Shown here piece by piece: positions 26,122 through 64,000 of a DNA stretch of 64,000 nt. Source of the DNA: Janthinobacterium sp. 64 (GTDB lineage Bacteria; Pseudomonadota; Gammaproteobacteria; Burkholderiales; Burkholderiaceae_D). The position numbers were made by a program, and so were the translations under genes. The notes beneath the pieces are model-generated. The model was not told the DNA's origin. It saw only the letters and a list, made by a program, of their open reading frames with translations, and ran no database searches. Location of the stretch: positions 434,001 through 498,000 of the forward strand of contig NZ_PHUG01000001.1 in assembly GCF_002813325.1 (NCBI RefSeq). Direction: 5' to 3'. Within the stretch, counting starts at the first letter, position 1. Each line of letters begins with the position of its first letter.

Positions 26122-26151
26122 TGTCACGAAGCCGTCATGTTTGCTGTGTAG
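26122..26151 (+). promoter_or_regulatory. Promoter-like element A (TGTCAC-N17-TGTGTAG)
   Basis: TGTCAC (26122-26127), 17-bp spacer, TGTGTAG (26145-26151), 88 bp before the STN gene. The same element with the same spacing and a similar spacer (GTCACGA, 4 bases, GTCA, then TTTGC) occurs before the paralogous cassette at 53593-53622. It is unlike a sigma-70 promoter and suits an ECF sigma factor, perhaps those encoded here. Confidence 0.55.
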
Positions 26152-26239
26152 GCTATTGCAGTTGACGCAAGAATTATTACTTGGCAATACCCCATTTCCA
26201 CGCAGTTCCACCCTCACACGATAGCGACACGATAGCGAT

Positions 26240-26962
26240 ATGACAGGCAGCCCGGCATCCGTGCATGTGCTAGCGCTGGCGGGATACCTGGTACTGCTGG
26301 GTTTCCTGACCGCGGTGGGACCGGTGCGGGCGCAACCGGCCGATGGTCCCGTGCTGCAGTTCGATATCGCCGCGCAAAACCTCGGCGATGCGCTCGACCT
26401 GTACAGCCGCCGCACGGGCATTGCCGTGCTGATGGACCAGCGCTACGCGCAGCGCCAGTCGGCCGCCGTGCGCGGCCCCCATGCGGCGGACGCGGCCCTG
26501 CAAGTTTTGCTGGAAGGCACGGGCCTGCTATCGCGTCTGTCCGATGCGCAAGCCGTCATCGTGTATGCGCCGGCCGCAGCTGAATTGCCGCAAGTCAGCG
26601 TCGTGGCCGCCGCCGATATTCCCGGCGCCACGCAGGGCGGCGGCGACCATGCGGCCTATGTCAGCCGCTTGCAGCACGTGCTGCTGGGACTGCTGTGCCG
26701 CGCGGCGCAGACGCGTCCCGGCGGCTACCGGCTGGCGCTGCAACTGTATCTGAACCGCGCCGGCGTGGTGGACCGCGTGCACCTGCTCGACAGCACGGGT
26801 TTGCGCGCGCGCGACACGGCCATCGCGCGCGTGGTGCTGGGCATGCGCGTGGGCGCCGCGCCGCTGCCCACGATGCCGCAGCCCGTCTCCATCCTGCTGC
26901 TGCCGCAAGGGCCGGGCAGCGAAGTCGATTGCGCCGGTGTGCCGGGTAGAAACGCGCCATGA
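26240..26962 (+). CDS. Periplasmic STN / TonB_C-like signalling protein (VreA-like), cassette 1
   Basis: A 240-aa exported protein with an unusual two-part layout. A signal segment is followed by a secretin/TonB short N-terminal (STN) domain at about residues 38-110 (LQFDIAAQNLGDALDLYSRRTGIAVLMDQRY ... LLEGTGLLSRLSDAQAVIVY). Residues 137-222 have the shape of a TonB C-terminal domain (YVSRLQHVLLGLLCRAAQTRPGGYRLALQLYLNRAGVVDRVHLLDSTG ... PLPTMPQPVSILLLP). There is no plug or barrel. The STN domain of surface-signalling receptors contacts FecR, so this protein probably carries the signal to the FecR next door, as VreA does in the P. aeruginosa PUMA3 system. It overlaps the sigma gene (ATGA). 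Confidence 0.8.
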   Translation: MTGSPASVHVLALAGYLVLLGFLTAVGPVRAQPADGPVLQFDIAAQNLGDALDLYSRRTGIAVLMDQRYAQRQSAAVRGPHAADAALQVLLEGTGLLSRLSDAQAVIVYAPAAAELPQVSVVAAADIPGATQGGGDHAAYVSRLQHVLLGLLCRAAQTRPGGYRLALQLYLNRAGVVDRVHLLDSTGLRARDTAIARVVLGMRVGAAPLPTMPQPVSILLLPQGPGSEVDCAGVPGRNAP

Positions 26963-27534
26963 GCCTGCCCGACCTGCGCACCAAGCTCAAACGCCACCTC
27001 AGTTCGCGCTACGCCGTGCTGCGCTGGCGCCTTGAAAGGGTGGTCGGCTGCAAGCACCATGCGGCCGATGCGCTGCAGGAAACCTGGCTGCGCCTCGAAG
27101 CGATGGTGGCGCCGGGGCCGGCCGCCGCGCCCGTCCACAATCCCGACGCCTATCTGCTGCGCATGGCGGCCAATATCGCCACCGATGCCTACCGCCGCGA
27201 CCGCATCATCGTCACCGAGCGCGAACGCGAAGAGCTGATGCACATGGCCGATGAGGCCGGCGACGACATCAGCGACCCGGCGCGCATCGTCTCGGCGCGG
27301 CTCGACGTGCAGGCGCTCGACTCTGCGCTGGCGGGCCTGTCGCCGCGCCGCCGCGCCATTTTGACCGGCGCCAGGGTCGATGGCTTGCTCAATGAAGAAA
27401 TTGCCGAGCGTTTCGGTATTTCCGTGGCGATGGTGAAGAAAGAATTGCAGGCCGCCATGCAACACTGTAAAACGTGCATGGCCGACGCCGAGGCCGTCCA
27501 GCGCAGCGATGTGTCGGGCCGCCGTAAATATTGA
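26959..27534 (+). CDS. FecI-type ECF sigma factor, cassette 1 (VreI-like)
   Basis: A 191-aa extracytoplasmic-function sigma factor. Region 2 is visible as CKHHAADALQETWLRLE with NPDAYLLRMAANIATDAYRRDR. Region 4 is LDSALAGLSPRRRAILTGARVDGLLNEEIAERFGISVAMVKKELQAAMQHC, whose helix-turn-helix reads the -35 element. It is expected to be held inactive by the FecR protein encoded next. The gene overlaps the STN gene (ATGA) and its TGA overlaps the ATG of fecR. It is a clear paralogue of the sigma at 54407-54949. Confidence 0.93.
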   Translation: MSLPDLRTKLKRHLSSRYAVLRWRLERVVGCKHHAADALQETWLRLEAMVAPGPAAAPVHNPDAYLLRMAANIATDAYRRDRIIVTEREREELMHMADEAGDDISDPARIVSARLDVQALDSALAGLSPRRRAILTGARVDGLLNEEIAERFGISVAMVKKELQAAMQHCKTCMADAEAVQRSDVSGRRKY

Positions 27535-28514
27535 TGAAACTGATGACTGCACCTGACCGCGATCCACGCGACCCTCTAGAACATAGCGACACTGCCATCG
27601 GCCAGCAAGCCGCCGCCTGGTGGGCGCGCCTGCGTTCCGACGATTTCACGCAGGCCGATGCCAAGGCCTTGCGCGCCTGGTGCGCGCGCAGCCCCGAGCA
27701 TGCGCGCGCCTGGCGCGAACTGCAACACCTGTGGCAGGCGCTCGATCCTGCCTTGACCCGCGCCGCCGCGCCACAGCGGGCGAACGTGCTGGCGTTTCCC
27801 CTCCGGCCGGGACGGCGTGCCTTCCTCGGCGGCGCGCTGGCCGCCGGCGTGGCCGTGCTGGCCCTGCGTCCGCCGCTGGGTGCCTGGCCTTCGCTGCAAG
27901 AGTTCGCCGCCGACTACCGCACTGGCACGGGCGAGCAGCGGCAAGTGGCCCTGTCGCAGCAGATGTCAGTGCAGATGAATACGCAGACGCGCATCGATGT
28001 GCGCGCGCCGGAAGCGATCGAACTGCTGGGCGGCGAAGCGGAAATCCTCGCCAGCGGCGCGCGCCAGCCCGTGACGGTGCTGGCGGGGGCGGGGCGCATG
28101 CTGGCGCAGTCGGCCCGCTTCAATGTGCGCCACACGGACGCCGCCGTCTGCGTCACCTGCCTGGCGGGCGCCGTGGAAGTCGTCTGGCAACAGCGGCGCC
28201 AGACTCTCGATGCGGGGCAGCAACTGGTGTACGACGAACGGGGCGTGCAGGCGGCCACGGCCGCACCAAAGGGCGAGGCCAGCGCCTGGCGCACGGGTGC
28301 GCTGTCGTTTGTCGGCAAGCCGCTGGCCGACGTGGTCGATGAAATCAACCGCTACCGGCCCGGCCGCGTGCTGCTGCGCAATGCCGAGCTGGGCCGGCGC
28401 CTGGTGCGCATGCGTTTTTCCATCGGGCAAACCGATGGCGCGCTGGCGATGATACGCGACCTGTACGGCGCGCAAATGACCAGCCTGCCAGGCGGCATCG
28501 TGCTGCTCAGCTGA
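27534..28514 (+). CDS. FecR-type anti-sigma/sigma regulator, cassette 1 (VreR-like)
   Basis: A 326-aa membrane regulator. The N-terminal cytoplasmic sigma-binding region is AAAWWARLRSDDFTQADAKALRAWCARSPEHARAW. A membrane segment follows at about residues 94-112, beginning with the twin-arginine motif RRAFLGG, as in Tat-exported FecR proteins. The periplasmic FecR domain then has TGTGEQRQVALSQQMSVQMNTQTRID, and an STN-like tail starts at PLADVVDEINRYRPGRVLL. The start ATG at 27534 is chosen over TTG 27531; it makes a TGATG overlap with the sigma gene. It probably releases the sigma factor when the STN protein signals. Confidence 0.93.
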   Translation: MKLMTAPDRDPRDPLEHSDTAIGQQAAAWWARLRSDDFTQADAKALRAWCARSPEHARAWRELQHLWQALDPALTRAAAPQRANVLAFPLRPGRRAFLGGALAAGVAVLALRPPLGAWPSLQEFAADYRTGTGEQRQVALSQQMSVQMNTQTRIDVRAPEAIELLGGEAEILASGARQPVTVLAGAGRMLAQSARFNVRHTDAAVCVTCLAGAVEVVWQQRRQTLDAGQQLVYDERGVQAATAAPKGEASAWRTGALSFVGKPLADVVDEINRYRPGRVLLRNAELGRRLVRMRFSIGQTDGALAMIRDLYGAQMTSLPGGIVLLS

Positions 28515-28550
28515 TCCCGTGTTTCCCTTTGGCAGGTTGATTTAAGAATA

Positions 28551-28579
28551 TTTGAAAATATTTTTCAAAAATCATTATC
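28551..28579. promoter_or_regulatory. AT-rich palindrome and Fur-like half-site before the exoprotein gene
   Basis: TTTGAAAA (28551-28558) and TTTTCAAA (28562-28569) form a perfect dyad with a 3-bp centre. They are followed at once by AATCATTATC (28570-28579), which equals one half of the Fur-box consensus; the other half is poor. No T tract follows, so it is not a terminator. It is the only AT-rich stretch of the cassette and lies 91 bp before the exoprotein ATG, so regulation there is plausible. Confidence 0.4.
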
Positions 28580-28669
28580 CCTTCCGCCATCGAGCTACGT
28601 CATGGAGGCATGGACGCCTGCGCCACCGCCAGGCTCCGTTCCCTACTCTCTAGCCAGGAAACCATTGCC

Positions 28670-31600
28670 ATGACCAAGTTTTACACTGCCCAGCGCCCAG
28701 TCCCGAACGTCGACACGGGCGCGCAGCGATCCTCCACGCTGGGCAGCCGCTTGCGGCTCACGCCGCTCGCTTACGCACTGACCACCATGCTGATGGCGGG
28801 CGCCTTCACCACGCCGGCGCGCGCGCAGCAGGCGTTCAGCGGCGGCTGGTTCGCGGCCAAGGGCGCGGCGCAAAACACGGCTTCGACGTCGGGACGCCTG
28901 CCGAATGGCCAGCCGCTGCCGCTGGGCAGCCGTCCCGACGGCCAGCAACAGCAGGCGAACCAGCAGTTGCAGCGTTCGCTCAACAACCTGAACCTGGCCG
29001 CGCGCGCCATCGCCGCGCAGCAAGCATCCCAGGCGCAGGCGCGCCAGGCGGCAGCCGGCGGCGCCAGTGTGCCAAATGGCCTGGCGCAGGGCGGCTTGCA
29101 GGTCGACACCAACAGCCTGACGGCCGGCTGGCTCAATGCCCAGGGTCCCGTGCAGACGGTGGCGAACGGCAAGACGGCCGTGGTGGTGCAGCAGACGGCG
29201 GACAAGGCCATCCTGAACTGGGAAACTTTCAACGTGGGCAAGGACACGACCTTGACCTTCCAGCAGCAAAAGGATTGGGCCGTGCTGAACCGGGTCAACG
29301 ATCCGCTGGCGCGTCCCAGCCAGATCCAGGGCCAGATCAAGGCCGACGGCACGGTGATGCTGGTCAACCGCAACGGTATCGTGTTCAATGGCACGAGCCA
29401 GGTCGACACGCGCAGCCTGGTGGCGGCAGCGGCCCGCATCAGCGATGCGCAATTCCAGAAAAACGGCATCTACAGCCCCGGCACGGCCGGCGCCGCAACG
29501 TTCACCGATGCGGACGGCAAGGTACAGGTGCAGGCGGGTGCGCGCCTGGCCAGCAACGCTCCCAAGGGCAGCACGGAAGGCGGCGGTTACGTGATGCTGC
29601 TGGGTAAAGAGGTGCACAACGGGGGCGAGATCAATACGCCCAAGGGCCAGGCCCTGCTGGCCGCCGGCGACAGTTTTACGATTAAAAAAGGCGTGGGCAC
29701 GGATGGCAATCCGCTGTCGAGCACGCGCGGCAGCGAAGTCACGCCGCAGTTCGCGGCCGGCGGCACGGCGGGCAAGGTTGTCAACACGGGCCTGATACAG
29801 GCGCGTGAAGGCGACATTACCCTGGCGGGCCGCGACGTGCGTCAGGAAGGTGTCGTTCTCGCCACTACCACGGCCGCCACGCGCGGCACCGTGCACCTGA
29901 ACGCCCTGGGCAGCGACGCTGCCGTCACCGTGGGACGCGGCGCCACCACGGCCATCCTCGTCGAAGACGATGGCAAGACGACGGCGCTCGACAGCCAGCG
30001 CGACGCCATGCGCGGCCCGGCCGTGTCGGCGGAGCAGAATATCTCGCTCGTCAACGACCGCCGCGACCAGTCGCGCATCGAGATCGGCAGCGCCGGCACG
30101 GTGGAATTCATCGGTGACTCGCTGACCCTGGCCACGGGCGGCCAGATCGCCGTCAATGCGGCCAGCCGCAGCCTCGTGCGCGATGGCGCCCAGCTTGACG
30201 TGTCCGGCGCCGTGGGCGTCAAGGTGGCCATGGCGGCCAACAATATCGAAATCAATGTGCAGGGCAACGAGCAGCGCGATGCGCCCGTCAACCGCGACGG
30301 CAAGGCCCTGATCAACAACAGCATCTGGGTCGACCGCCGCAAACTCGTGTTCGTACCGAAGGGCACGAACGGCTACGACAGCGACCGCTGGTACACGGCC
30401 GGCGGCTTGCTGGAAGTGGCCGGTTATCTGGGCACGCAGGGTCACTCCGTCAGCGAATGGATGGCGCAGGGCGGCACGGTCAGCTTCGGCGGCAAGGATG
30501 TCGTCACGCAGGCCGGCTCCGGCATCAATCTGTCGGGCGGCACCCTCGACGTGCAGACGGGCGCGCTGCGCCAGACCTGGCTGAAAGGCGCGGACGGCAA
30601 GCTGTACGAAGCGGGCAGCGCGCCGGCCGACCTGGCCTATCTTGGCGTGTACAAGGGTTACGAGGAAGAACACGCGCGCTGGGGCAAGGATGCCAGCGCG
30701 TTTTACGCCAGTCCCTTGATCGCCGCGCAAAAACGCCTGGAAAACGGCTACACGGTGGGCCGCGACGCGGGCAAGCTGGTCATCGCCACGGGGTCGGCCG
30801 TGCTGGAAGGGGCGATTGCTGGCGAGGTCTTCCAGGGCGAGCGCCAGACGCAGACACCGCAAGCGCTGCTCGACGGCTACCAGCAGTCGCAGCTGGCGGC
30901 CGCGCAGCGGGGTCAATTGATCGTCGGCCAGTACCAGCCGATGTTCGACAAGCGCACGGGCGTGCTGCAGCATGCGCTGTCGGCCGTCATGGACGAGGTG
31001 CGCCTGACGCGCGTGCAGGACGGCATCGCCGCCGGCCTCGGCGTGACTGGCGCGCTGGACGCTGAACGCGAGGGCAGGCTGCTGCTCGACACCAATTTAC
31101 TGAACAGCCAGCAACTGGGCGCCATCCGCCTCGCCGCCAAGGGCGCGATCACCGTCGACAGCGCGCTGCAAGTGGCCGACGGCGGCAACATCACCCTGTT
31201 CGGCAATGACGTGGCCATCAACAGCAGCTTGCGCAGCCATGGCGGCAGCATCCTGGCCGGCAATGTGCTGAACCAGATCGGCGCGCTGGGCATGTTGGAC
31301 ACCGTCGTCAACCCGGGCGGGCCTGCGGGCAAGCTGCTGCTGGCCGATGGCGTGACCCTCGATACCAGCGGTCTGCTCAGCAGCGTGCTGCGCGACCCGC
31401 TGGCCGCCGCCGGCCTGCCGTACCTGAACGGCGGCACGGTATCGTTGCGCGCGTTTGGCGACGTGCGCATCGGCAATGGCAGCCTGATCGACGTGACCTC
31501 GGGCGCGGCCATCCTGTCGCAGGCGAAACAGCAGGGCGGCAAGGGCGGCAACGTGGCCCTGGCCAGCTATGGGCCGGAAGCCGACCTGGTGCTGGGCGAG

Positions 31601-34600
31601 GGCGCACAAGTGCGCGGCCACGGCGTGGCCGGTGGCGGCAAGCTGGAATTGCAGGCGAACCAGATCGTGATCGGCCACATGGAAAAACCCGGGGCAGGCA
31701 CCCTGCAGCTGGGCGGCGACTTCTTCGACAAGGGTTTTTCCAGCTACAGCCTGCTCGGCAAGCAGGGCGTGACGGTGGCGGACGGCACGCAGGTCGACGT
31801 GCGCATGCCCGTGCTGCGCGTGGTGGACAATGAAAAACTGGCGCTGTGGACGCCGGAACAGTTTACGGAAAACGCGCTCAAGGGCACCTTGACTCAGCGC
31901 AAGGGCGCCAGCCTGGCCCTGCAGGTGGGCGACGTGCAGTCCGATGCGGCCGACATGGCCAGCGCCGAGCTGCTGGTCGGCAAGGGCGCCGTGGTGAATG
32001 TCGATGCGGGCCAGTCCATCAAACTGGCCAGCGTGGGCCAGCTGACGGTGGAAGGGCGGCTGAACGCCTGGGGCGGCAAGATCAGCCTCGGCGGCGTGGG
32101 CGTTGCCGTGAATGTGTCCGAAGCGGTGGAAGCGGCCGGCCATGGCCGTTCCCTGTGGATAGGCGAAACCGCCGTGCTCGACGTGGCCTCGCGCGCCGTC
32201 ACGGCCACGGACGTGCAGGGCCGGCGCTACGGCAAGGTGATCGATGGCGGCAGCATCGTCATCGGCGGCGAGATCGACCATGCGCAGGGCAGCACGTCGG
32301 CGGCCAGCCTGTTCGTCGTCGTGCGCGACGGCGCCGTGCTCGACGCTTCCGGCGCGCACGCGGTGCTCGATGTGAACGGCGCGGCCATCGACGTGGCCAG
32401 CGCGGGCGGCAGCATCGCGCTGGCGTCGAACAATGGCTTGTACCTGGACGGCCAGCTGCTGGCCCGGGCGGGCGGCGCGGGCGCGGCGGGCGGCAGCCTG
32501 TCCGTGGCCACGGGCACCCCCGTCTACCTGAAAGTGCTGGCCACGGACAAGGTGCTGCAGGGACGCCAGCTGGCGCTGACGCAGCGCCAGGGCGCCAGCG
32601 ACCTGGCTGAACACGTGAGCGCACGGGACGCGGCGGCAACGCTGCAGTACGGCCACGGGCGTTTTTCCGTCGAGCAAGTGGAAGCGGGCGGCTTCGGCAG
32701 CCTGGCCCTGCTGGGCGCCGCCTCCTTCGATGGCGACGTGTCGCTGCATCTGCAGCAAAGCTTCCAGCTGTACGGCGCGCCCGTGCTGACACCAGGCAGC
32801 AAGCCCGGCGCGAAGGTCAGCGTTACGGCGCCGTACGTGCGCCTGGCCAGCATCAAGCCGGCCGGCAAGGATTTCTATGTCACGCCAGGCACGGCCGGGG
32901 AGTCGCCGATGGCTGGCCAGGTCAGCATCGCGGGCGACCTGATCGACGTGCGTGGCCTCGTCAATATCGTTGCCGACGACGTGCGCCTGAGCAGCCGCGG
33001 CGACTTGCGTTTCCTGCTGTCCCCGCTGGGCTGGGGCGGCGCGGAGGCGACGACGGTGCTGTCCTCGCCGGGCGACATGACCCTTGCTGCGGCCCAGCTG
33101 TACCCGGACACGGGCGCCGGCGCCGCCGTACGCGTCGGTTATGGCCGCACGGATGGAAAGTTCGGCTACGATCCGGCGCGCAGCCTGCGCATCGCCCGCA
33201 CGACGGATAGCCTGCCGGCCATGCCGTATTCCGCCTTCGGCTCGCTGGAACTGGAGGCCGCGCATATCGAGCAGGGCGGCGTGGTGCGCGCACCGCTGGG
33301 GCGCCTGGCCATCGGCGCGGCCCGCTATGAAAATGACAAGAGCCTGAGCGTCAATCTGCTGGCCAACAGCATCAGCTCCGTCAGCGGCGCCGGCCTGGTC
33401 ATGCCGTATGGCGGCACCGTCGATGGCCAGAGCTGGAACGTGGACGGCAAGCTGGCCACCTTCATGGGCGTGGGCGGCTTCAATGCGCAGGGCGGCTTGC
33501 GCGTCGGCGTGGAAATGGCCGGCGTGGCCGTGCAGGTGCAGCCGGGCGCACTGCTCGACCTGTCGGGCGGCGGCGAACTGACGGGCGCCGGCTTCATCGC
33601 GGGCCGCGGCGGTTCCACCGATGCGCGCTATCATCCGCTGGCGCAAGTGAATGCGAACGGCGGTTTCATCCTGCCGGGCCTGGCGACGAATCCCGTGTAC
33701 GCCATCGTGCCCGGTGTGCAGGCGCCGCAAGCGCCTTCGGGCGCCGCCGATGCGGCCATCGGCCGGCAGGTGACGATAGGCAACGGCGTGCCTGGCCTGG
33801 CGGCCGGCACCTATACCCTGATGCCGTCGACCTACGCCCTGCTGCCGGGCGCCTTCCGCGTGGAACTGAACGGCCTGGCGGGGCAGGGCAGCGCCGGTAC
33901 GCTGGCGCAGCCGCTGCGCAACGGTTCCTGGGCCGCGCCCGGCACCTTGTCGATCGCCGGCACGGACATCCGCGCGCCGCTGGCCAGCCAGCTGATCATC
34001 ACGCCGGCCAAGGTCGTGCGCACGTATTCCCAGTACAACGAAATGGGTTATGCCGCGTTTGCCCTGGCCGATGCGCAAACGCGGGGCATTCCCCGCGCGA
34101 TGCTGCCGGCCGATGCGAAAACGCTCAAGCTGAACCTGGCGCCCGGCGGCGGCCTGGAGACGTTCCAGTTCCACGGCACGGGCAAGTTCGGCGCGGCCGA
34201 GGGCGGCTATGGCGGCACCGTGGTGCTGATGTCGAGCAATACCTCCGCTGGCGAGATCGAGCTCCTCGCCGATGGCGCGCCGGCCAGCGGTGACGCGAAA
34301 CAGGTCAGCATACGCGCTTCCAGCCTGAACAATATCGGCGCGGCCCGCATCGTGGTGGGCAATGCGCCCACGGTGGAATATGGCCAGGGCGGCAATTACG
34401 TGAACTTCGGCGTCCAGTCGGCGCGCGCCATCTACCTGCGCGCCGGCGCCGTCCTGTCGGCGCCCGAAGTATTCCTCGTCGCCCAGGATCCGGGCAATTC
34501 TGAACTGGGCGACGGCGTGATCGATATCGCGCCCGGCGCCGGCATCAACACCCTGGGACGCGGCAAGGCCGCGTACGACGCCAATGATGGCTTTATCTAC

Positions 34601-43671: not shown

Positions 43672-43675
43672 CGCC

Positions 43676-45874: not shown

Positions 45875-45999
45875 CCCCTTGCGCCACCGTGCGCGTGACA
45901 ATTCGTGTATTTTTGGCAATTCGCAAGTGTTATGCTCGAAACGCATCTTGCAGGCCTGCCTCCGCTCCGCGAGGCGCAGGTGGGGCGCCAGGAGAATGC

Positions 46000-47633
<1,634 letters not shown>

Positions 47634-47637
<4 letters not shown>

Positions 47638-48662: not shown

Positions 48663-48672
48663 AAAGGCCACC

Positions 48673-51296: not shown

Positions 51297-51333
51297 GGCC
51301 CCCCGATATTGCCGCCCTTAGCCGAAAACCATC

Positions 51334-53469: not shown

Positions 53470-53592
53470 ATCCCCCCCAAACTGTAGAGCAGCGGGCGCC
53501 GGCGGACGTGGAAAGGCGAGGCCTTGTCTGTGCCGGCCATGCTGTCTTCCTCCTCGGGTGAAAGGCATGGGTGAAGGCGGCTGGTCACGGCG

Positions 53593-53622
53593 TGTCACGA
53601 TGGTGTCACTTTTGCCGTGTAG
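53593..53622 (+). promoter_or_regulatory. Promoter-like element B (TGTCAC-N17-CGTGTAG)
   Basis: TGTCAC (53593-53598), 17-bp spacer, CGTGTAG (53616-53622), 63 bp before the second STN gene. It matches element A at 26122-26151 in both boxes, spacing and part of the spacer, and downstream bases (GCCT / GGCT, then GC-GT-GA) are also similar. Two paralogous operons keeping the same element argues that it is functional. Confidence 0.55.
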
Positions 53623-53685
53623 CCTGCTGCTGTCGATGGAGCATCCGTCGGCAACGGCCCATTTCGAGAACAGGACGATAGCGTG

Positions 53686-54417: not shown

Positions 54418-54949
54418 CTTGCGCGCGCGCCTGCGCGGCGTGCTGGTGACGCGCTATGGCCAGCTGCGCCGCAAGCTTGAATACATCGTCGGCACCGGGG
54501 AGCGCGCGGCCGATGCCTTGCAGGAGACCTGGCTGCGCCTGGAGTCGATGCCCGGCAATACCGCCGTGCGCAATCCCGACGCCTACCTGCTGCAGATGGC
54601 GGTCAACGTCGCCACCGACCAGTACCGCCGCGAACACCGGAAATTGAACGATGCCGATATCGACGCCCTGTTCGACGTGGAAGACGAACTGGCCGATCCC
54701 GAACGCATCGTCGCGGCGCGCAGCGAGATCATCGCCCTGGAAGCGGCGCTGCGCCAGCTTACGCCGCGCCAGCGCGAGATTCTGCTGGCGGCGCATATCG
54801 ATGGCCAGCTCAACCGCGAGATCGCCGCGCGCCTGGATATTTCGCTGAGCCTGGTGGAAAAAGAGTTGCGGCACGCCCTGCGACATTGCCAGCAATACGT
54901 GGGCGCCCCGGCCGACATGGCCGCCCGTGGCGGCCCACGCCGTTTCTGA
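54407..54949 (+). CDS. FecI-type ECF sigma factor, cassette 2 (VreI-like)
   Basis: A 180-aa sigma factor, paralogous to the one at 26959-27534. Region 2: TGERAADALQETWLRLESM with NPDAYLLQMAVNVATDQYRREH. Region 4: LEAALRQLTPRQREILLAAHIDGQLNREIAARLDISLSLVEKELRHALRHC. The ATG at 54407 is chosen by comparison with cassette 1 (short N-terminus, then RLRGVLVTRYGQLRRKLEYIVG). It overlaps the STN gene by 11 bp, so the two are co-translated. Confidence 0.92.
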   Translation: MPDSLRARLRGVLVTRYGQLRRKLEYIVGTGERAADALQETWLRLESMPGNTAVRNPDAYLLQMAVNVATDQYRREHRKLNDADIDALFDVEDELADPERIVAARSEIIALEAALRQLTPRQREILLAAHIDGQLNREIAARLDISLSLVEKELRHALRHCQQYVGAPADMAARGGPRRF

Positions 54950-54963
54950 TACGATTCTTCATC

Positions 54964-55911
54964 ATGACCCAACACAGCAACGACAGCTACGGCGATATCG
55001 AGGAACAGGCGAGGCAATGGCTGGTGCGCCTGCGCTCGGGCCGGGCGAGCCAGGCCGATGCGCAGGCGTTCGCCCGCTGGCGCGCGCAAAGTCCCCGCCA
55101 CGCCCGGGCGGCGCGGGAACTGGGACAGCTGTGGCGCGGCCTGCGCATGGCGGCGCCCGCGGTGGCGCGCGAGCAGGCCATGCGCGCACCGTCGCGCGGC
55201 CGGCGCGCCTTCCTGGGCGGCGCGCTGGCCGCGGGCGTGGCGCTGCTGGCCTTGCGTCCGCCGCTGGCCCTGTGGCCGTCCGTGGGCGAACTGGCCGCCG
55301 ACTATCGCACGGGCACGGGCGAGCAGCGCCAACTGGCGCTGGCCGGCGGCGCACAAGTGCGCATGAATACGCAGACACGCCTGAACCTGCGCGGCGCGGA
55401 TGACGCCGCGTTCATCGAATTGCTGGCTGGTGAAGCGCAGATCGTCACGGGTGGCCGGGACGCGTGTACCGTGCTGACTGGCGGCGCGCGGCTGCAGGCG
55501 CGCGCCGCCAGTTTCAATGTGCGCTGCCTTCCGGATGGTGACGTGGAATTGAGCTGCCTTGAAGGCCGGGTCGAAGTCGACCACCCGCAGCGGCGCACCA
55601 CCTTGTCCGCGTCGCAGCAGTTGCGCTACGGCCCGGCCGCGCTGCGCCTGGCAGCGCCGGCCGATTCGAATGCCGTGCTGGCCTGGCGCCGCGGCCTGCT
55701 GCTGTTCAATGACACGCCGCTGGCGCAGGTGGTCGAGGAACTCAACCGATACCGGCCCGGCAGGATCTTCCTGCAAAGCGAAGAGCTGGGCATGCGCCGT
55801 GTCCAGGCGCAGTTTTCCATCGAGAAGCTCGATGTCGCCCTGGCGCTGATCCGCGACCTGTACGGCGCCCGGCTCACCTACTTGCCTGGCAATCTGGTCC
55901 TGCTCAGCTAG
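54964..55911 (+). CDS. FecR-type anti-sigma/sigma regulator, cassette 2 (VreR-like)
   Basis: A 315-aa membrane regulator, paralogous to that at 27534-28514. The N-terminus is EEQARQWLVRLRSGRASQADAQAFARWRAQSPRHARAAREL. The membrane segment starts with twin arginines in GRRAFLGGALAAGVALLALRPPL. The periplasmic domain has ADYRTGTGEQRQLALAGGAQVRMNTQTRLN, ELLAGEAQIVTGGRDACTVLTGG, and the STN-like tail PLAQVVEELNRYRPGRIFL. It starts 14 bp after the sigma gene. Regulation as in cassette 1; whether the two FecR proteins cross-talk is unknown. Confidence 0.92.
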   Translation: MTQHSNDSYGDIEEQARQWLVRLRSGRASQADAQAFARWRAQSPRHARAARELGQLWRGLRMAAPAVAREQAMRAPSRGRRAFLGGALAAGVALLALRPPLALWPSVGELAADYRTGTGEQRQLALAGGAQVRMNTQTRLNLRGADDAAFIELLAGEAQIVTGGRDACTVLTGGARLQARAASFNVRCLPDGDVELSCLEGRVEVDHPQRRTTLSASQQLRYGPAALRLAAPADSNAVLAWRRGLLLFNDTPLAQVVEELNRYRPGRIFLQSEELGMRRVQAQFSIEKLDVALALIRDLYGARLTYLPGNLVLLS

Positions 55912-55975
55912 GCCTTGTCACGCGCGCGCGCATCAAGCCGGGCGTGGACCGCAGTATCGCACCTTCCACTACGGG

Positions 55976-55990
55976 AACGCTCCCAGCGTT
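55976..55990. repeat. Short dyad before the second exoprotein gene
   Basis: AACGCT-CCC-AGCGTT, a perfect 6-bp-arm inverted repeat in the 211-bp gap between fecR and the exoprotein gene. No T tract follows. The rest of the gap carries only the ribosome site CCAGGAAATC just before the ATG, which is nearly identical to that of cassette 1. TGTCAC also occurs at 55916, but no matching second box follows. Confidence 0.35.
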
Positions 55991-56122
55991 GCCTTCGATA
56001 GTGTTTCTGGAAAAAATAAATGCGGGTTAGGCGGACAGCATGCGTCCCAGTCATGAGCAGCGCATTTTCAGCGCGCCTTCCCTGACCAACCAGCACGTTC
56101 ATTTTTCCAGGAAATCATTGCC

Positions 56123-59100
56123 ATGACCATGTTTCACACTGCCCCGCGCAAGACCATGACACAGACGCTGCGCGTGCGCGTGCCCGTGCCGCAAGCGGCC
56201 ATGCGCCTTACGCCCCTCGCGTATGCCGTGGCCGTGCTGCTGGCGGCGGGCGGCACGGTGCAGCAGGCGCAGGCGCAGCAGGCGTTCAGCGGCGCCTGGT
56301 TTGCCGGCAAGGGTGCAACGCAGGCGACAGCGGTGCAGACGGGGCGGCAGCCCGGCGGCGTGCCGCTGGCCGGCCGGCCGGCGGCGCCCGGCCCGCAGAC
56401 TGGCGAGCAGTTGCAGCGTTCGCTCAACAACCTGAATCTGGCCGCGCGCGCCATCGCTGCGCAGCAGGCGGCGCAGGCACAGGCGCGCCAGGCGGCGGCC
56501 ACTGCGCCCGGCGTGCCCGACGGCCTGGTGAATGGCGGCCTGAAGATCGATGCCAACAGCCTGACGGCTGGCTGGCTCAACGCCCAGGCTCCCGTGCAGA
56601 CGGTGCAGGCAGGCAAGACGACGGTGCTGGTGCGGCAGACGGCCGACAAGGCCATCCTGAACTGGGAAACGTTGAATGTCGGCAAGGATACGACCTTGTC
56701 CTTCCAGCAGCAGAAGGACTGGGCCGTACTGAACCGGGTCAATGATCCGCTGGCCCGTCCCAGCCAGATCCAGGGCCGCATCGAGGGCGATGGCACGGTG
56801 CTGCTGGTCAACCGCAACGGCATCGTCTTCCATGGCGCCAGCCAGGTCGATACGCGCAACCTGGTGGCTGCCGCCGCCGGCATGGGCGACGCGCAGTTCC
56901 GCGAGCGCGGCATTTACAGCAATGGCAGCGTGCCATCGATCAGTGATGCACTGGGCAAGGTCGATGTGCTGCGCGGCGCGCGCCTCGCCACGCGCGCGCC
57001 CGCCAATTCCACCGAGGGCGGCGGCTATGTGCTGCTGGCTGGCGCCGAGGTGCATAACGGCGGCGAGATCCTGGCGCCGAAGGGACAGGCGCTGCTGGCC
57101 GCTGGCGACAGCTTCGTCATCCGCAAGGGCGTGGGCACGGATGGCAATGCGCTGTCCACCACGCGTGGCAATGAGGTCGTGCCGCGCTTCGGCGCGGCGG
57201 GGGCGACAGGCAAGGTCGCCAATTCGGGGCTGATCCAGGTGCGCGAAGGCGATGCGACCCTGGCCGGGCGCGAGGTGCGCCAGGATGGCGTGCTGCTGGC
57301 CAGCACCAGCGTCAATGCGCGCGGCACGCTGCACCTGCAGGCGCTGGGCGAGCAGGCCGCCGTGGTGCTGGGGCAGGGCGCCACGACAGCCGTCCTGATC
57401 GAGGAAGCGGCGGGCAATACGGCGCTCGACAGCCAGCGCGACGGCTTGCGCGCCCCGGCCGTGGCCGGCGCCGGGTCCATGCTGCCGCTGGCGGACCGGC
57501 GCGACCAGTCGCGCATCGCCATCGACAGCGCCGGCATGGTGGATTTCCAGGGAGCGTCGCTGACGCTGGCCACGGGCGGGCAGATCAGCGTCAATGCGGC
57601 CGGCCGCAGCCTGGTGCGCGATGGCGCACAGATCGACGTGGCGGGCGCGGCGGGTGTGCGGCTGGCCATGGAAAGCAACAACGTCAAGGTCAACGTGCAG
57701 GGCAACGAACAGCGCGACGCACCCGGCAACCGTGATGGCAAGGGGCTCAATAGCAGCGATATCTGGCTGGACAGGCGCAGCCTGGTGTTTGTTCCCAAGG
57801 GAACGAACGGCTATGACAGCGACCGCTGGTACACGGCGGGCGGCTTGCTGGAGGTAGGCGGCTACCTGGGCATGCAGGGACACACGGTGGGAGAATGGAT
57901 GGCGCAGGGCGGCACGCTCAGTTTTGACGGCAAGGACGTCGTCACGCAGGCCGGTTCCAGCATCAACCTGTCGGGCGGCACCTTGCGGGTGGAGGGCGGC
58001 TCGATCCGCCAGACCTGGGTGAATGGGGCCGACGGCCGCCAGTACGAAGCATCGCGCGCCCCCGGCGATTTGCTATACACGGGCCTGTACCGGGGCTTTG
58101 AAGAGCTGCACGCGCGCTGGGGCGAGTCCGCCACGGCTTCCTACCGCAGTCCGCTGATCGCGCCGCTGCAGCGGCTGGAAAACGGGTATACGGTGGGGCG
58201 CGATGCCGGCAAGCTGGTGATCGGCACGCAGGCGGCCGTGCTGGAAGGGGTGATCGACGCCAGCGCCGTCCAGGGGCCGGGCCAGCAGCAGGCGGCGCAG
58301 GCCGGTGTCGATGGCTATCATCAGTCGCACAAGGCCGCCGCCACGCGCGGCCAGCTGATCGTCGGGCGCTCCGTGCCCATGTTCGAAAAGAGCACGGGCC
58401 TGACGCACGACAGCCTGGGCGCCGTCATGCGCGACGTGCAACTGGCCGGCGGCGCGGACGATATCGCCGCAGGCCTGGACCTGGGCACGCTGCTGCCGAC
58501 CTCGCGCCAGGGGCGCCTGGTGCTCGATACGGCACGCCTGAACGGCTTCGAACTGGGCGCCATCCGCATTGCCGCCACGGATACGATCGCCGTCAATGGC
58601 GCCGTGCGCGTGGCCGACGGCGGCAACGTGACCCTGTACGGCAGCGACGTGGCAGTCAATGCCGACGTGACGGCGCACGCGGGCGGCATCCAGATCGGCA
58701 ATATCCTGCGGCAGGCCGTCAACGGCCGTATCGAGGACAGCGTGCTGAAGGCGCCCACCGGCGGCAAGGCCGGCGTGCAGGTGGCCGGCGGCGTGACGTT
58801 CGATGCGAGCGGCTTGTGGAGCCAGTCCCTGCAGGATGAGGAATCATTGCCTGGCGCCAGGCTGGCATACCGGCATGGCGGCAGTGTTTCCCTGCGCAGC
58901 AGCGGCGACGTGCTGCTGCGCCAGGACAGTCGCATCGACGTGCGCTCGGGTGCGGCGCAGCTGGCCGGTGGTACGCTACGCGGCGGCAAGGGCGGCAACG
59001 TGACGCTGGAAACGCGCATGCAGGGCAGCGAGCGCGCGGCCAGCCTGGGTTTCGACGGCGCGCTGCTGGGCCAGGGCATGGAGGGCGGCGGCACGCTGCA

Positions 59101-62100
59101 GGTGCGCGCGGCGAAGGTGCTGATCGGCGGAACGGCGCGGGCGGCGGCCGACACGCTGCAGCTCGACAGCGGCTTTTTTGACAAAGGGTTTTCCCGCTAC
59201 GATATCGGCGGCAATGGCGGCTTGACGGTGGCCGACGGCGCGCAGGTGGCGGTGACGATGCCGCTGCTGCGCCTGGCCGGGCAGGAGGTGGAAGCGTGGC
59301 TGTCGCCCGTATACCGCGAAGACGCGAGGAAGGGCGTGCTGACGCAGCGCCTCGGCGCCAGCTTGCGGCTGCAGGCCGGCGTGGCGGACGTCTCCGGCGG
59401 CGCGGATATGGCCAGCGTCCAGGCGCGCATCGGCCACGGCGCCGTGCTGGAAGTCGATCCCGGCCAGTCGATCACGCTGGCCAGTGTCGGCCAGCTGACG
59501 CTCGATGGCCGCCTGAATGCCTGGGGCGGCAAGATCGTGCTGGAAGGCATGGCGGGCGATGTGCAGGCGGCCGAGACGGCCAACGGCGCCGGGCATGGCC
59601 GCTCGATCTGGATCGGCGACGGGGCCGTGCTGGACGCGGCGGCGCGCGCCGCCACGGCCGTCGATGCGCGCGGCCAGCGCTATGGCCTGGTGCGCGACGG
59701 CGGCAGCATCGTGGTGGGCGGCACGCTCGACCAGGCCACGGGCAAGGCAGATGCGGCGCACCTGTTCGTGGCCGTGCGCGAAGGCGCGCTGCTCGACGCT
59801 TCCGGCACGCAGGCGCAGCTCGACGTGGCGGGCCTGGGCGCCACGCAAGTGGCCAGCCGTGGCGGCAGCATCGCGCTGGCGTCGAACAACGGCCTGTATC
59901 TTGACGGCCAGATGAAGGCCGGGGCGGGCGGCGCCGGCGCGGCCGGCGGCACGCTCGCCCTCGCGCTGGAAACGCCGCAGTACCGCGATACCGCGGGCGC
60001 GCGCGTGCGCCAGGCGCGCGAGTTCATGCTGCGCCAGCAGCCGGCCGGCGGCACGCTGGCTGCCACCCAGCCGGAACAGGCGGCCGCGCAGTTCGCGTAT
60101 GGCCACGCGGCGCTGGCCGCCTCGCAGGTGGCCGCCGGCGGCTTCGGCAATCTGTCCATCCTCAGCAACGGCATGCTCGGCTTCGATGGCGACCTGTCCC
60201 TGTCGCTGGGCCAGAGCCTGCATCTGTACGCGCCCACCCTGGTACTGGCCGACGGCGCGGCAGCAGCCACGCGCGTGCTGCTGGCGGCGCCGTACATGCG
60301 CCTGGCCGGCATCGGCGCCGTTGGCGCGGGCGATGGCCAGATACGTCCCACTGTGACGGGCGGCGTATCGACGCAGCCGGCCGCAGGCACCTTGCGCCTG
60401 GAAGCCACGCAGCTGCTCGACGTGCGCGACGTACTGACGACGGGTGCGCATGGGGGTAAGGAGCGTGCGCAAGGACTGCCGATGGTGCTCGACCGGCGTG
60501 CCTTCGACAGCGTGGAACTGGCCAGCCAGGGCGACTTGCGCTTCCTGGGCGCTACCGTCAGCGGCCAGAATACCGTTCTCAACACGCCGGCCGACCTGGC
60601 GCTGACGGCGGCGCGCATTTATCCGGCAACGGGGGCCAACGCCATCGTGCGGGCCGGCTACCTGGGCGGGGGCAGCGATTATGCGCAGCAGCGCCTGCTG
60701 CGCATAGGCCGCGCCGGCACGGATGGCGCAGCGCTGCCGCCATCTTCCGCCTTTGGAAAGCTGACCCTGGGCGCCGCCGCGATCGAGCAGGGCGGAGTGT
60801 TGCTGGCCCCGCTGGGCGGCCTCGTGCTGGGCGCCAGTACGGGCGCCAGCATGTCGGATACGCGTTCCCTGCGCTTCCTGCCGGGCAGCGTGACGTCGGT
60901 CAGCGGCGCCGGCCTGATGCTGCCATATGGCGGCACGGCCGATGGCGTCAGCTGGAGCTACGATGGCCAGGATGTCAGCTTGCTGGGCGCGGGCGGCACC
61001 TATGGCACGACGGCCAATCTGAAAGTGGGACTGGCGATGAAGAGCCGCGCGGTCGACGTGCAGCCGGGCGCCGTGCTCGATCTGTCGGGTGGCGGCCAGT
61101 TGCTGGGCGCCGCCTTCGTGGCCGGCCGTGGCGGCTCCACTGATGCGCGCTACCATCCGCTGGTGCAGACGCGGGCCAACGGCGGCTTCATCCTGCCTGA
61201 ACTGGCCAGCAATCCCGTGTACGCGATCGTGCCGGGCGCGCAGGCGCCGGTGGCGCCCGCCGATGGCGAGCGCGGCGCCAGTGTGCCCGTGCCGGGCCAG
61301 CAGGTGACGATAGGCGCCGGCGTGCCCGGTTTGCCGGCCGGCAGCTACACCTTGCTGCCGTCGACCTACGCCTTGCTGCCGGGCGCCTTCCGCGTCGAGT
61401 TCAATGGCCAGGCCGGCATCGCGCCGGCCGCGCCGAATGCCATGCGCAACGGTTCCTGGGCCGCCAGCGGCCGCCTGTCCGTGGCAGGCACGGACATCGG
61501 CGACGCCCTGTCGCGACAGCTGATCGTGACGCCGGCCAGCGTGTTGCGCAGTTATTCGCAGTACCGGGAAACCAGCTATGCCGATTTTGTGCGCGCCGAC
61601 GCGGCCAGGCTGGATGTGCCGCGCGCCATGCTGGAAGCGGATGCGAGGACCATGGTGGTCCAGTTGATGCCAGGCAATGGCGACGCCATCGATTTCCATT
61701 TCCAGGGCCAGGCCCGCTTTCAGCCCGCCGACAAGGGACATGGCGGCACGCTGGCCTTCCCGATGGACGGCGGGCATCTGGAAGTGCTGGCGGCCGCTGG
61801 CCAGGCCGGCGCCGACATGGGCAGCGTATCGCTGCGCGCCGTTGACGTCAACGCCGTGGGCGCGGCGCGCCTGTCGCTGGGCAGCTTGCCCGTGGTGCGC
61901 TACGGCCAGGGCGGCAACTTGCTCGACTTCGCCACTGGCGGGGCAGCCGGCGCCATCACCGTGCGTGACGGGGCGTCGCTGTCGGCCGCCGAAGTATTGC
62001 TCATCGCCAACTCAACAGTGGCAAACCAGGGCGCCGGCATCAAGGTCGAGCAGGGGGCGGCCATCAGCACGCTGGGGCGCGGCAGGTCCGCCTTCGATGC

Positions 62101-64000
62101 CGACGACGGTTTCGTCTACCAGCCCGGCTACCGTGGCGTGCTGGCCGTTTCCAATGGGCGCCTGCAGATGCTGGCGCCGGAATACGATAGCGTGGGCACG
62201 CCGGCCAGCATCCGCATCGGCACTTGTGCGCAGGTAGCTTGTGCGGCAACCACCTCGCTGTATTCGGAAGGCTCGATCGCCTTTGCCACCAGCAGCGCCT
62301 TCGAGCTCGGCGACGCCGTGCGCTACGGCACGCGTCACCTGACCCTGGCGGTCGGCGGCATCAACGTGGGCAGTGCGCAGACGCTCGATGCGACCGCCGC
62401 GCGCGGTGCCCTGCCGCCGGGGCTGAGCTTGAACCAGGAGGTCCTGGACCGCCTGCTGCGCGGCGATGCCGGCACGGGCGCGCCGGCCTTGCAGACCTTG
62501 TCGCTGACGGCGGCCCAGTCGCTCAATTTTTACGGCGACACGACCCTGAGCACCATGGATGCCAGCGGAAAGTCGCTGCTGGACAAGTTGTCGCTGACGA
62601 CGCCGGCCATGTATGGCGGCGGCAAGGCGGGCGAGGCGGCGCGCATCGTCACCGACACCCTCGTCTGGAATGGCGGCACGGCCGGCCCGGCAGCGCTGCC
62701 CGGCGCCGTGCTGGCCGGCGGCGCCGGCACGGGCAGCGGCACGCTCGACGTGCGTGCGCGGCGCATCGAGTTCGGCTATGGCCCCGACACGCGCCCGGAC
62801 ACGCTGGCCGACGCGCAGCGCCTGATCCTGGGCTTTGCCGACGTCAGGCTCAATGCCAGCGAGCGCATCACGGCCAACCACAAGGGCAGCCTGGCCGTGC
62901 ACCAGTCGCAGGGCGCGTATGCGACGGGCAAGGGCTACGCCTACGCCGGCGGCGACCTGTACCTGAACACGCCGCTGCTGACGGGACAAGCCGGTTCCGT
63001 CAACCGCATCACGGCAGGCGGGGCGCTCAATATCGCGGGAGCGGGCTCTGGCGGGCCGGCGGCGCTTGCCGGCAGCGACGCGCTGGGCGCGGAACTGCTG
63101 TTGGCGGGCAATAGCGTGACGCTCGATACGGCCGTGGTGTTGCCTAGCGGCAAACTGACCCTGGCCGCCACGGGCGACGTGCGCCTGCTGGACGGCGCGC
63201 AGCTGGACCTGGCAGGGCGCAAGGTCAGCATCCACGATGCGGACAAATACAGCTGGGGCGGCGAAGTCATACTGACCAGCCGCAGCGGCAATATCGCGCA
63301 GGCGGCCGCCGCCGGCATCGATGTGTCGGCCCGCAACAACCAGGGCGGCAAGGTGCAAGCCATCGCCCTCGATGCGGCCGCAGGCAAGGTCGACTTGCAG
63401 GGCCGGCTGCTGGGCGGCGCCAGCGGCCGCTATGACGCCGGTGGCACCGTCTTGCCCTACAAGGGCGGCGCCGTGGATATCCGCGCGCAGGACGTGGGCG
63501 ATTTCGCGGCCCTGAACCGGCGCCTGAACGACGGCAAGGTGGACGGCGAACGCAGTTTCCAGATCAAGCAGGGCGATCTGACCATCGGTGACGAGATCAG
63601 GGCGGGCAGCGTCAATGTTTCGCTCGATAATGGCCGCCTGACGGTGGCGGGCGCCATCGACGCCAGCGGCGAGCGCGTGGGCGCCATCCGCCTGGCGGGC
63701 AAGCATGGCGTGACGCTGGCCGGCACGGCCGTGCTCGACGCGCATGGCAGCGTGCTGCGCGTCGACAGCTATGGCAAGATCATCGATGCGCCGAACCGGG
63801 CGATGATCGAAATCAATGCGGGCGATGGCGTGCTGGCCCTGGACGGCGGTGCGCGGCTCGATGTGCGCCACGGCACGGCGGCCGGCAGCGGCGCGGGCAA
63901 GGGCCGGCATGACGACCAGGCGCGCGGCACCCTGGACTTGCACGCGGCGCGCCTGGGCAGCGCCGGTGGCGCCAGCGACGCCGACGCGGCCACGCACGGC
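56123..64000 (+). CDS. Giant filamentous haemagglutinin-family exoprotein, DUF3739 type, cassette 2 (partial)
   Basis: Paralogue of the 28670-41269 product; 2626 codons are visible and the gene runs off the window end without a stop. The N-terminus has a Sec signal (LTPLAYAVAVLLAAGGTVQQAQA) and then QAFSGAWFAGKGATQ, LQRSLNNLNLAARAIAAQQA, ILNWETLNVGKDTTLSFQQQ, ARPSQIQGRIEGDGTV and LLVNRNGIVFHGASQVDTRN, the two-partner-secretion haemagglutination domain. Beta-repeat segments then run parallel to cassette 1 up to about its residue 2600. CCAGGAAATC precedes ATG 56123. It is probably a second adhesin under its own sigma/anti-sigma pair. A transporter (TpsB) could lie beyond the window. Confidence 0.92.
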   Translation, partial: MTMFHTAPRKTMTQTLRVRVPVPQAAMRLTPLAYAVAVLLAAGGTVQQAQAQQAFSGAWFAGKGATQATAVQTGRQPGGVPLAGRPAAPGPQTGEQLQRSLNNLNLAARAIAAQQAAQAQARQAAATAPGVPDGLVNGGLKIDANSLTAGWLNAQAPVQTVQAGKTTVLVRQTADKAILNWETLNVGKDTTLSFQQQKDWAVLNRVNDPLARPSQIQGRIEGDGTVLLVNRNGIVFHGASQVDTRNLVAAAAGMGDAQFRERGIYSNGSVPSISDALGKVDVLRGARLATRAPANSTEGGGYVLLAGAEVHNGGEILAPKGQALLAAGDSFVIRKGVGTDGNALSTTRGNEVVPRFGAAGATGKVANSGLIQVREGDATLAGREVRQDGVLLASTSVNARGTLHLQALGEQAAVVLGQGATTAVLIEEAAGNTALDSQRDGLRAPAVAGAGSMLPLADRRDQSRIAIDSAGMVDFQGASLTLATGGQISVNAAGRSLVRDGAQIDVAGAAGVRLAMESNNVKVNVQGNEQRDAPGNRDGKGLNSSDIWLDRRSLVFVPKGTNGYDSDRWYTAGGLLEVGGYLGMQGHTVGEWMAQGGTLSFDGKDVVTQAGSSINLSGGTLRVEGGSIRQTWVNGADGRQYEASRAPGDLLYTGLYRGFEELHARWGESATASYRSPLIAPLQRLENGYTVGRDAGKLVIGTQAAVLEGVIDASAVQGPGQQQAAQAGVDGYHQSHKAAATRGQLIVGRSVPMFEKSTGLTHDSLGAVMRDVQLAGGADDIAAGLDLGTLLPTSRQGRLVLDTARLNGFELGAIRIAATDTIAVNGAVRVADGGNVTLYGSDVAVNADVTAHAGGIQIGNILRQAVNGRIEDSVLKAPTGGKAGVQVAGGVTFDASGLWSQSLQDEESLPGARLAYRHGGSVSLRSSGDVLLRQDSRIDVRSGAAQLAGGTLRGGKGGNVTLETRMQGSERAASLGFDGALLGQGMEGGGTLQVRAAKVLIGGTARAAADTLQLDSGFFDKGFSRYDIGGNGGLTVADGAQVAVTMPLLRLAGQEVEAWLSPVYREDARKGVLTQRLGASLRLQAGVADVSGGADMASVQARIGHGAVLEVDPGQSITLASVGQLTLDGRLNAWGGKIVLEGMAGDVQAAETANGAGHGRSIWIGDGAVLDAAARAATAVDARGQRYGLVRDGGSIVVGGTLDQATGKADAAHLFVAVREGALLDASGTQAQLDVAGLGATQVASRGGSIALASNNGLYLDGQMKAGAGGAGAAGGTLALALETPQYRDTAGARVRQAREFMLRQQPAGGTLAATQPEQAAAQFAYGHAALAASQVAAGGFGNLSILSNGMLGFDGDLSLSLGQSLHLYAPTLVLADGAAAATRVLLAAPYMRLAGIGAVGAGDGQIRPTVTGGVSTQPAAGTLRLEATQLLDVRDVLTTGAHGGKERAQGLPMVLDRRAFDSVELASQGDLRFLGATVSGQNTVLNTPADLALTAARIYPATGANAIVRAGYLGGGSDYAQQRLLRIGRAGTDGAALPPSSAFGKLTLGAAAIEQGGVLLAPLGGLVLGASTGASMSDTRSLRFLPGSVTSVSGAGLMLPYGGTADGVSWSYDGQDVSLLGAGGTYGTTANLKVGLAMKSRAVDVQPGAVLDLSGGGQLLGAAFVAGRGGSTDARYHPLVQTRANGGFILPELASNPVYAIVPGAQAPVAPADGERGASVPVPGQQVTIGAGVPGLPAGSYTLLPSTYALLPGAFRVEFNGQAGIAPAAPNAMRNGSWAASGRLSVAGTDIGDALSRQLIVTPASVLRSYSQYRETSYADFVRADAARLDVPRAMLEADARTMVVQLMPGNGDAIDFHFQGQARFQPADKGHGGTLAFPMDGGHLEVLAAAGQAGADMGSVSLRAVDVNAVGAARLSLGSLPVVRYGQGGNLLDFATGGAAGAITVRDGASLSAAEVLLIANSTVANQGAGIKVEQGAAISTLGRGRSAFDADDGFVYQPGYRGVLAVSNGRLQMLAPEYDSVGTPASIRIGTCAQVACAATTSLYSEGSIAFATSSAFELGDAVRYGTRHLTLAVGGINVGSAQTLDATAARGALPPGLSLNQEVLDRLLRGDAGTGAPALQTLSLTAAQSLNFYGDTTLSTMDASGKSLLDKLSLTTPAMYGGGKAGEAARIVTDTLVWNGGTAGPAALPGAVLAGGAGTGSGTLDVRARRIEFGYGPDTRPDTLADAQRLILGFADVRLNASERITANHKGSLAVHQSQGAYATGKGYAYAGGDLYLNTPLLTGQAGSVNRITAGGALNIAGAGSGGPAALAGSDALGAELLLAGNSVTLDTAVVLPSGKLTLAATGDVRLLDGAQLDLAGRKVSIHDADKYSWGGEVILTSRSGNIAQAAAAGIDVSARNNQGGKVQAIALDAAAGKVDLQGRLLGGASGRYDAGGTVLPYKGGAVDIRAQDVGDFAALNRRLNDGKVDGERSFQIKQGDLTIGDEIRAGSVNVSLDNGRLTVAGAIDASGERVGAIRLAGKHGVTLAGTAVLDAHGSVLRVDSYGKIIDAPNRAMIEINAGDGVLALDGGARLDVRHGTAAGSGAGKGRHDDQARGTLDLHAARLGSAGGASDADAATHG

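Follow-up and report, generated by a model that had tools for sequence, protein, structure and literature searches.

Repeated PUMA3-like cassettes in Janthinobacterium sp. 64 with a second ECF sigma factor gene on the stop codon of a giant exoprotein gene

Cell-surface signalling of the PUMA3 (VreAIR) type offers the closest described parallel to the genes considered here. In the portion of Llamas 2009 (PMC2729926) available to us, VreA is described as an STN domain joined to a TolA/TonB-like part, and PUMA3 clusters are recorded four times in a Janthinobacterium, three of them followed by tpsA; repeated PUMA3-tpsA clusters in this genus have thus been in print since 2009. The window analysed here, a 64,000-nucleotide stretch (C1:434001-498000) of the 6.30-Mb genome of Janthinobacterium sp. 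64, twice contains genes in the order STN protein, FecI-type sigma factor (sigma-a), FecR, exoprotein with DUF3739 and two-partner secretion (TPS) domains, and second extracytoplasmic function (ECF) sigma factor (sigma-b). To our knowledge, surface-signalling systems have been described as one sigma factor with one anti-sigma factor. We propose, tentatively and with somewhat less than even confidence, that each cassette is a PUMA3-like unit behind a Pho-box-type promoter, in which sigma-a would transcribe the exoprotein gene and sigma-b, overlapping the exoprotein stop codon, would provide a feed-forward latch for exoprotein expression; the latch role assigned to sigma-b is our best guess.

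That the same gene order occurs twice, as a preliminary description had claimed, is borne out by open reading frame (ORF) and Pfam placement of both runs, which are 11.7 kb apart. Cassette 1 (26240-41979 from the STN gene through sigma-b; positions are those of the window, all on the + strand) comprises a predicted VreA-like periplasmic protein of STN and TolA/TonB-C-like parts (STN protein 1, 26240..26962), sigma-a 1 (26959..27534; FecI-type ECF by Pfam, NCBIfam and tree), a FecR-type anti-sigma with DUF4880 and FecR matches (27534..28514, the ATG being at 27534 with a TTG 3 bp earlier; Pfam), exo1 (28670..41269; 4199 amino acids (aa), with Pfam placing the TPS domain at 159-385 and DUF3739 at 3984-4094) and the ECF sigma-b 1 (41266..41979; Pfam, tree). 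Cassette 2 comprises a second predicted VreA-like protein (STN protein 2, 53686..54417), sigma-a 2 (54407..54949; FecI-type ECF by Pfam and tree), FecR-type anti-sigma 2 (54964..55911; Pfam) and exo2 (56123..64000; 4269 aa), which leaves the window and ends at L005:8933, its TPS and DUF3739 domains having been matched by Pfam on two overlapping pieces; sigma-b 2 lies just beyond the window (L005:8930-9535; Pfam). As in PUMA3, a FecI-type sigma gene and a FecR-type anti-sigma gene stand directly 3' of the VreA-like gene in both cassettes. The earlier account had the exoprotein genes preceded by tiny gaps, which on measurement are 155 bp (cassette 1) and 211 bp (cassette 2); it also overlooked the ECF sigma gene 3' of each exoprotein, giving one sigma per cassette, and counted two DUF3739 genes, of which the genome carries four, each with STN, sigma and FecR genes upstream, cassettes 3 and 4 being far from those of the window. 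No TonB-dependent receptor was found among the window proteins scanned, which covered part of the window ORFs, and to that extent the cassettes are receptor-less as described; as a departure from PUMA3 the claim falls, PUMA3 itself being without a TonB-dependent receptor.

Sigma-b is an ECF sigma factor, both copies matching Pfam r2 and r4_2 (regions 2 and 4) above cut-off, with TIGR02937 likewise above cut-off and matches to solved ECF sigmas. Its start overlaps the exoprotein stop by 4 bp (ATGA in cassette 1) in 21/21 cassette-1 type and 4/4 cassette-2 type loci. By sequence it is a separate clade of ECF sigmas, 35-36% identical to sigma-a: in a 79-row tree a 100/100 branch splits 24 sigma-b rows from 54 sigma-a rows, with one unlabelled Pandoraea row (L192) on the sigma-b side. 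An approximately unbiased (AU) test, with the 24 labelled sigma-b rows held against the 55 others, gave p 0.33, and since L192 falls among the sigma-b rows, the clade includes that Pandoraea sigma. An Azoarcus row (L177), labelled sigma-b by position, has a long branch and only 143 bits in the profile search, and is doubtful. Median dN/dS (nonsynonymous over synonymous substitution rate) among cassette-1 orthologues was 0.255 for sigma-b (19 sequences, after L016, whose aligned stretch crossed a stop codon, had been dropped from 20), with 0.117 for sigma-a, 0.219 for FecR, 0.177 for the STN protein and 0.202 for the exoprotein C-terminus (20 each); sigma-b is under purifying selection and is less constrained than sigma-a. 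That it is a dead gene is ruled out by this value together with open frames in all 32 loci. In alignment A2, the stretch that follows region 4 in the sigma-b C-termini (HCA..TG....GG...PRR) is conserved across genera.

No anti-sigma gene adjoins sigma-b, its neighbours being a 2Fe-2S subunit gene in cassette 1 and opposite-strand efflux genes in cassette 2. It may be that sigma-b transcribes nothing of note and titrates FecR, so that exoprotein synthesis frees more sigma-a, as could be argued from the want of an adjoining FecR gene, from the relatedness of sigma-a and sigma-b, and from the genome searches described below, which yielded no target promoter; the retention of both regions 2 and 4 (alignment A2) and the match to solved ECF sigmas make this quite unlikely.

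The two window cassettes differ considerably, with identities of 42% for the STN proteins, 48% for sigma-a, 54% for FecR, 58% for sigma-b and 52-58% for exoprotein pieces. In the sigma-a tree and in a quick FecR tree, a Variovorax cassette (L187) and a cassette of genome G003 (L066) join cassette 1, leaving cassette 2 outside; the sigma-b genes of the two cassettes pair together in the 79-row tree (98/96). Cassette 2 is present in 4/40 genomes of the genus sample (40 genomes of the collection), where it always has the orientation of cassette 1 and 23-33 kb separate the two DUF3739 domains. The phylogeny of the paralogues, proposed earlier as a check, thus lends no support to recent duplication: the identities and the sigma-a and FecR tree positions exclude a recent tandem event, and sequence comparison indicates that the cassettes are the outcome of old paralogy or separate gain. 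The identical order might be taken to mean a pair of recent origin, each member a plain VreAIR cassette with a single sigma, an idea that the second sigma in each cassette, the paralogue identities and the tree positions render scarcely tenable.

Across the genus sample, a sigma-b profile scored 252-300 bits in 33 matches and at most 155 bits in all the rest. Sigma-b stands directly behind a DUF3739 gene in 32/33 cases, the 33rd being 58 bp from a contig end in a genome that has a DUF3739 gene cut by the end of another contig. DUF3739 matches above cut-off number 62 (two more are below), 32 with sigma-b directly behind; the other 30 comprise 26 that are linked to TpsB (seen in 25, with a contig end in one), 3 with neither neighbour and 1 cut by a contig end. 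None of the 26 TpsB-linked exoproteins of the genus has sigma-b behind it. At the level of genomes, a TpsB-linked cassette is present in all 23/23 with sigma-b, 3 have the TpsB-linked cassette only, and 14 have neither sigma-b nor an above-cut-off DUF3739 gene. No cognate TpsB gene was found behind exo1 or exo2, which hence lack the same-locus partner of a TpsA protein. The genome contains seven ShlB-family genes elsewhere, and the nearest PdtB-type TpsB copies adjoin cassettes 3 and 4; TpsB, an ExbB fusion, a TonB-like protein and a porin are encoded behind the exoprotein of cassette 3, with a near-identical copy of the module upstream of cassette 4. The two copies of this 7.1-kb export module (L006:11326-18407 and L009:8669-15752; C1 near 3.60 Mb and 1.71 Mb) have 99.5% DNA identity and represent a recent copy or gene conversion.

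Sigma-b might instead transcribe other genes, e.g. the TpsB-ExbB-TonB-porin export module or surface genes, such that a completed exoprotein message would raise export capacity. The lack of an own TpsB in the sigma-b cassettes of the genus, and the TpsB-linked cassette in every sigma-b genome, are in keeping with such a role, against which stand the resemblance of the TpsB promoter to that of exo3 in the same cassette (reversed Pho-like repeat, GCAGTC, CTGTC) and the 3 genomes with TpsB but no sigma-b; overall we regard it as unlikely. Outside the genus, 12 genomes were picked for their DUF3739 content, not as a survey, and sigma-b-level matches (227-305 bits) occur in 7 of them: G191 (same family), Cupriavidus (7 matches), three Variovorax, Azoarcus and Pandoraea. 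The profile search found none in the remaining 5, Pseudomonas aeruginosa PA7 included. In Pandoraea iniqua the sigma-b-clade gene (L192, 227 bits) is located at the 5' end of the cassette, upstream of the STN gene, and not behind the exoprotein.

The likeness to PUMA3/VreAIR, already drawn in the preliminary description, is supported by predicted fold, gene order, Pho box and exoprotein similarity. With respect to fold, Pfam at E 0.01 gave no family for STN protein 1 and a sub-cut-off STN match for STN protein 2, whereas PDB matches of the AlphaFold2 model of STN protein 1 (pLDDT, the predicted local distance difference test, 83.7) are to an FpvA/PupA/FecA-type signalling lobe and a TolA-C-terminal-like lobe. 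The protein is thus predicted to be VreA-like, with an STN-type lobe and a TolA/TonB-C-like lobe and without a barrel, as in PUMA3. With respect to the exoproteins, the N-terminal TPS domain (PF05860) scores 89.9 bits in exo1 and 76.9 bits in exo2, as befits TpsA proteins, and comparison of the first 500 aa of exo1 with the presumed PdtA of P. aeruginosa PA7, its sole DUF3739 exoprotein, gives 53% over 453 aa. Shortened exoprotein frames, at contig ends or breaks, are present in G008 (1272 + 2242 aa), G020 (C44, 1725 aa) and G039 (C83, 2338 aa).

Upstream of STN 1 is a Pho-box pattern, TGTCAC-N5-CGTCAT (26122..26138), found by genome pattern search and kept in 20/20 aligned cassette-1 type promoters, which scores 11 of 14, a value matched by 2/100 shuffles; the pattern upstream of STN 2 (53593..53609), from promoter alignment and the genome search, scores only 10 of 14, matched by 16/100 shuffles, and is weak on its own. 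Alignment of 20 cassette-1, 4 cassette-2 and 20 cassette-3 type STN promoters places two TGTCA-type repeats with an 11-bp period in conserved blocks, and across genera 57/85 STN promoters score at least 11 of 14. Genome-wide, the pattern TGTCAYN5YGTCAY matches 24 times, in 22 places that include all four cassettes, compared with 1 match for a reversed-pattern control. When the longest nearby ORF was scanned behind 17 of the 18 non-cassette places, the next gene was of phosphate type at 7/17 (PBP_like_2, taken as PstS; polyphosphate kinase; Ppx-GppA; PhoX; Phosphodiest; Metallophos; Phytase-like), the remainder being 2 TonB-receptor plugs, 5 other families and 3 with no family. From the 24 matches versus 1 and the phosphate-type genes at 7 of the other places, there is good evidence that the STN-promoter pattern is a Pho box, with PhoB control predicted. 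The same pattern precedes two TonB-dependent-receptor genes (L217 and L222) and a GGDEF gene (L216) of this genome. According to the part of a study of P. fluorescens SBW25 at hand (PMC5082522), this strain secretes, in phosphate-depleted culture, a large exoprotein that includes a domain of adhesion type.

The gaps between fecR and the exoprotein genes contain predicted ECF-type promoters, that of exo1 at 28567..28601 (A-tract, TTATCCC, CGTC) and that of exo2 at 56011..56046 (A-tract, TGCGGG, CGTC). In 22 aligned cassette-1 type gaps conservation runs from the A-tract via CTACGTCAT as far as the start codon, and the part near the fecR stop is variable; exo2 and cassettes of other genera have in common an A-tract with [CT]GTC downstream of it, and TGCGG often lies between the two. 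An A-tract is present in 22/35 gaps, with [CT]GTC 22-38 bp downstream in 15/22, at 26-28 bp in 11 of those; base-shuffled controls gave a mean of 4.7 and a maximum of 13 in 2000, for a motif that had been defined after the sequences had been viewed. The 15 are split between 8/14 gaps of sigma-b cassettes and 7/21 other gaps, so this promoter type does not single out sigma-b. A different arrangement, a reversed Pho-like repeat with (T)GCAGTC, precedes the TpsB genes and several of the TpsB-linked exoproteins, and a similar reversed repeat is upstream of the PA7 exoprotein. A Gibbs two-block promoter search locked onto A-tracts (514.9 bits for the real set, 439-462 for six shuffles) and was not used. 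It is on promoter conservation that sigma-a is predicted to drive the exoprotein gene. The co-directional arrangement of all genes, overlapping as far as fecR, would also suit a single long phosphate-starvation operon, in which the exoprotein gene is mostly read through from the STN Pho-box promoter and both sigmas are secondary; the conserved promoter-like block in the 155 and 211 bp gaps, and the requirement of P. aeruginosa pdtA for its own sigma and Pho box, reported in the accessible part of PMC4971064, make this highly unlikely.

On the reading that we favour, with sigma-b as a latch, phosphate starvation would lead PhoB and the main sigma to make the STN protein, sigma-a and FecR, the motif being observed and its binding presumed. 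A surface signal, perhaps relayed by the periplasmic STN/TolA-like protein, would then, by analogy with PUMA3, free sigma-a from FecR, and polymerase carrying sigma-a would transcribe the exoprotein gene, starting at the conserved ECF-type promoter within the gap of 155-211 bp. Sigma-b may be translated from the end of the 12.6-kb message by coupling at the observed overlap and, without a FecR gene of its own, might keep the exoprotein promoter firing, this being the weakest step. The exoprotein could leave via a PdtB-type TpsB encoded elsewhere in the genome, as their co-occurrence suggests.

Several observations weigh against this proposal. Genome searches identified no sigma-b-specific promoter, the exo1-like promoter giving 6 matches with 9 for the reversed control and the exo2-like promoter 12 with 25, and 7 of the 15 A-tract promoter matches are in cassettes that have no sigma-b behind the exoprotein. 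No Pho-like repeat was found in the exo1 and exo2 gaps, one being present reversed at exo3, unlike the published pdtA promoter. In 7 loci of A-prime type, sigma-b follows the exoprotein without the stop-start overlap, and several TpsB-less cassettes outside the genus are without sigma-b, which limits the association of sigma-b with a lack of TpsB to Janthinobacterium. FecR might bind sigma-b too. As regards the relay step, VreA is apparently dispensable for sigma activation in P. aeruginosa, at least in the part of PMC7035377 consulted.

Molybdo-enzyme subunit genes (2Fe-2S, FAD, Mo-binding) follow cassette 1 in the window (42056-51186), and then two hybrid histidine kinases flanking an NMT1-type binding protein. 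The 2Fe-2S/molybdo-enzyme genes are behind sigma-b in 19/20 further cassette-1 type loci and 0/11 other sigma-b loci, and are therefore counted as neighbours, not as part of the cassette. Between 15758 and 20000 the G+C content drops to 0.53-0.57, with ORFs including a weak TOTE-primase-type match and an alpha/beta hydrolase, and this segment is possibly acquired DNA.

What is new here is the Pho-box pattern at all four copies, the conserved ECF-type exoprotein promoters, sigma-b on the exoprotein stop, the lack of TpsB in cassettes 1 and 2 and the co-occurrence of sigma-b with TpsB-linked cassettes; searches limited to open-licence PMC papers gave no report of a second sigma behind a TpsA-type gene. 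That sigma-b founds a class of output-coupled sigmas, i.e. ECF sigmas whose translation begins at the stop codon of the giant gene that they serve, is a doubtful suggestion. If it is true, exoprotein production would be committed and timed only after the full 12.6-kb message, and a passing phosphate and surface signal would be converted into a sustained state; with a separately evolved second sigma fixed downstream of the output gene in Janthinobacterium, Cupriavidus, Variovorax and Azoarcus, very long adhesin-type genes would each be accompanied by a regulator that sustains their expression. With the Pho boxes, the control of PdtA-type exoproteins by phosphate starvation, as in Pseudomonas, would reach a genome that has four paralogues, in which the roles of PhoB, sigma-a, sigma-b and a shared TpsB are directly testable.

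In comparison with two-partner secretion (TpsA/TpsB, FhaB/FhaC), the window exoproteins bear the TPS domain, but TpsB is outside the window cassettes. With FecIRA-type iron signalling the cassettes share a FecI-type sigma, FecR and an STN-protein signalling lobe of predicted FecA/FpvA fold; by contrast, the STN protein is without the outer-membrane receptor barrel, a Pho box takes the place of the iron signal, and the output is an exoprotein. The resemblance is closest to PUMA3/VreAIR with PdtA-PdtB of P. aeruginosa, extending to the STN plus TolA-like protein, the FecI-type sigma, FecR, the upstream Pho box and the DUF3739/TPS exoprotein as output. The window cassettes differ in that the exoprotein is directly behind fecR and TpsB is absent from both, and in that the exo1 and exo2 promoters have no visible Pho box, whereas a Pho box with sigma -35/-10 elements is published, in the portion of the literature available to us, for pdtA and phdA only; on this count they are classed as a PUMA3 variant and not as plain members. 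They differ further in the second sigma gene on the exoprotein stop codon, P. aeruginosa PA7 having no sigma-b-level match.

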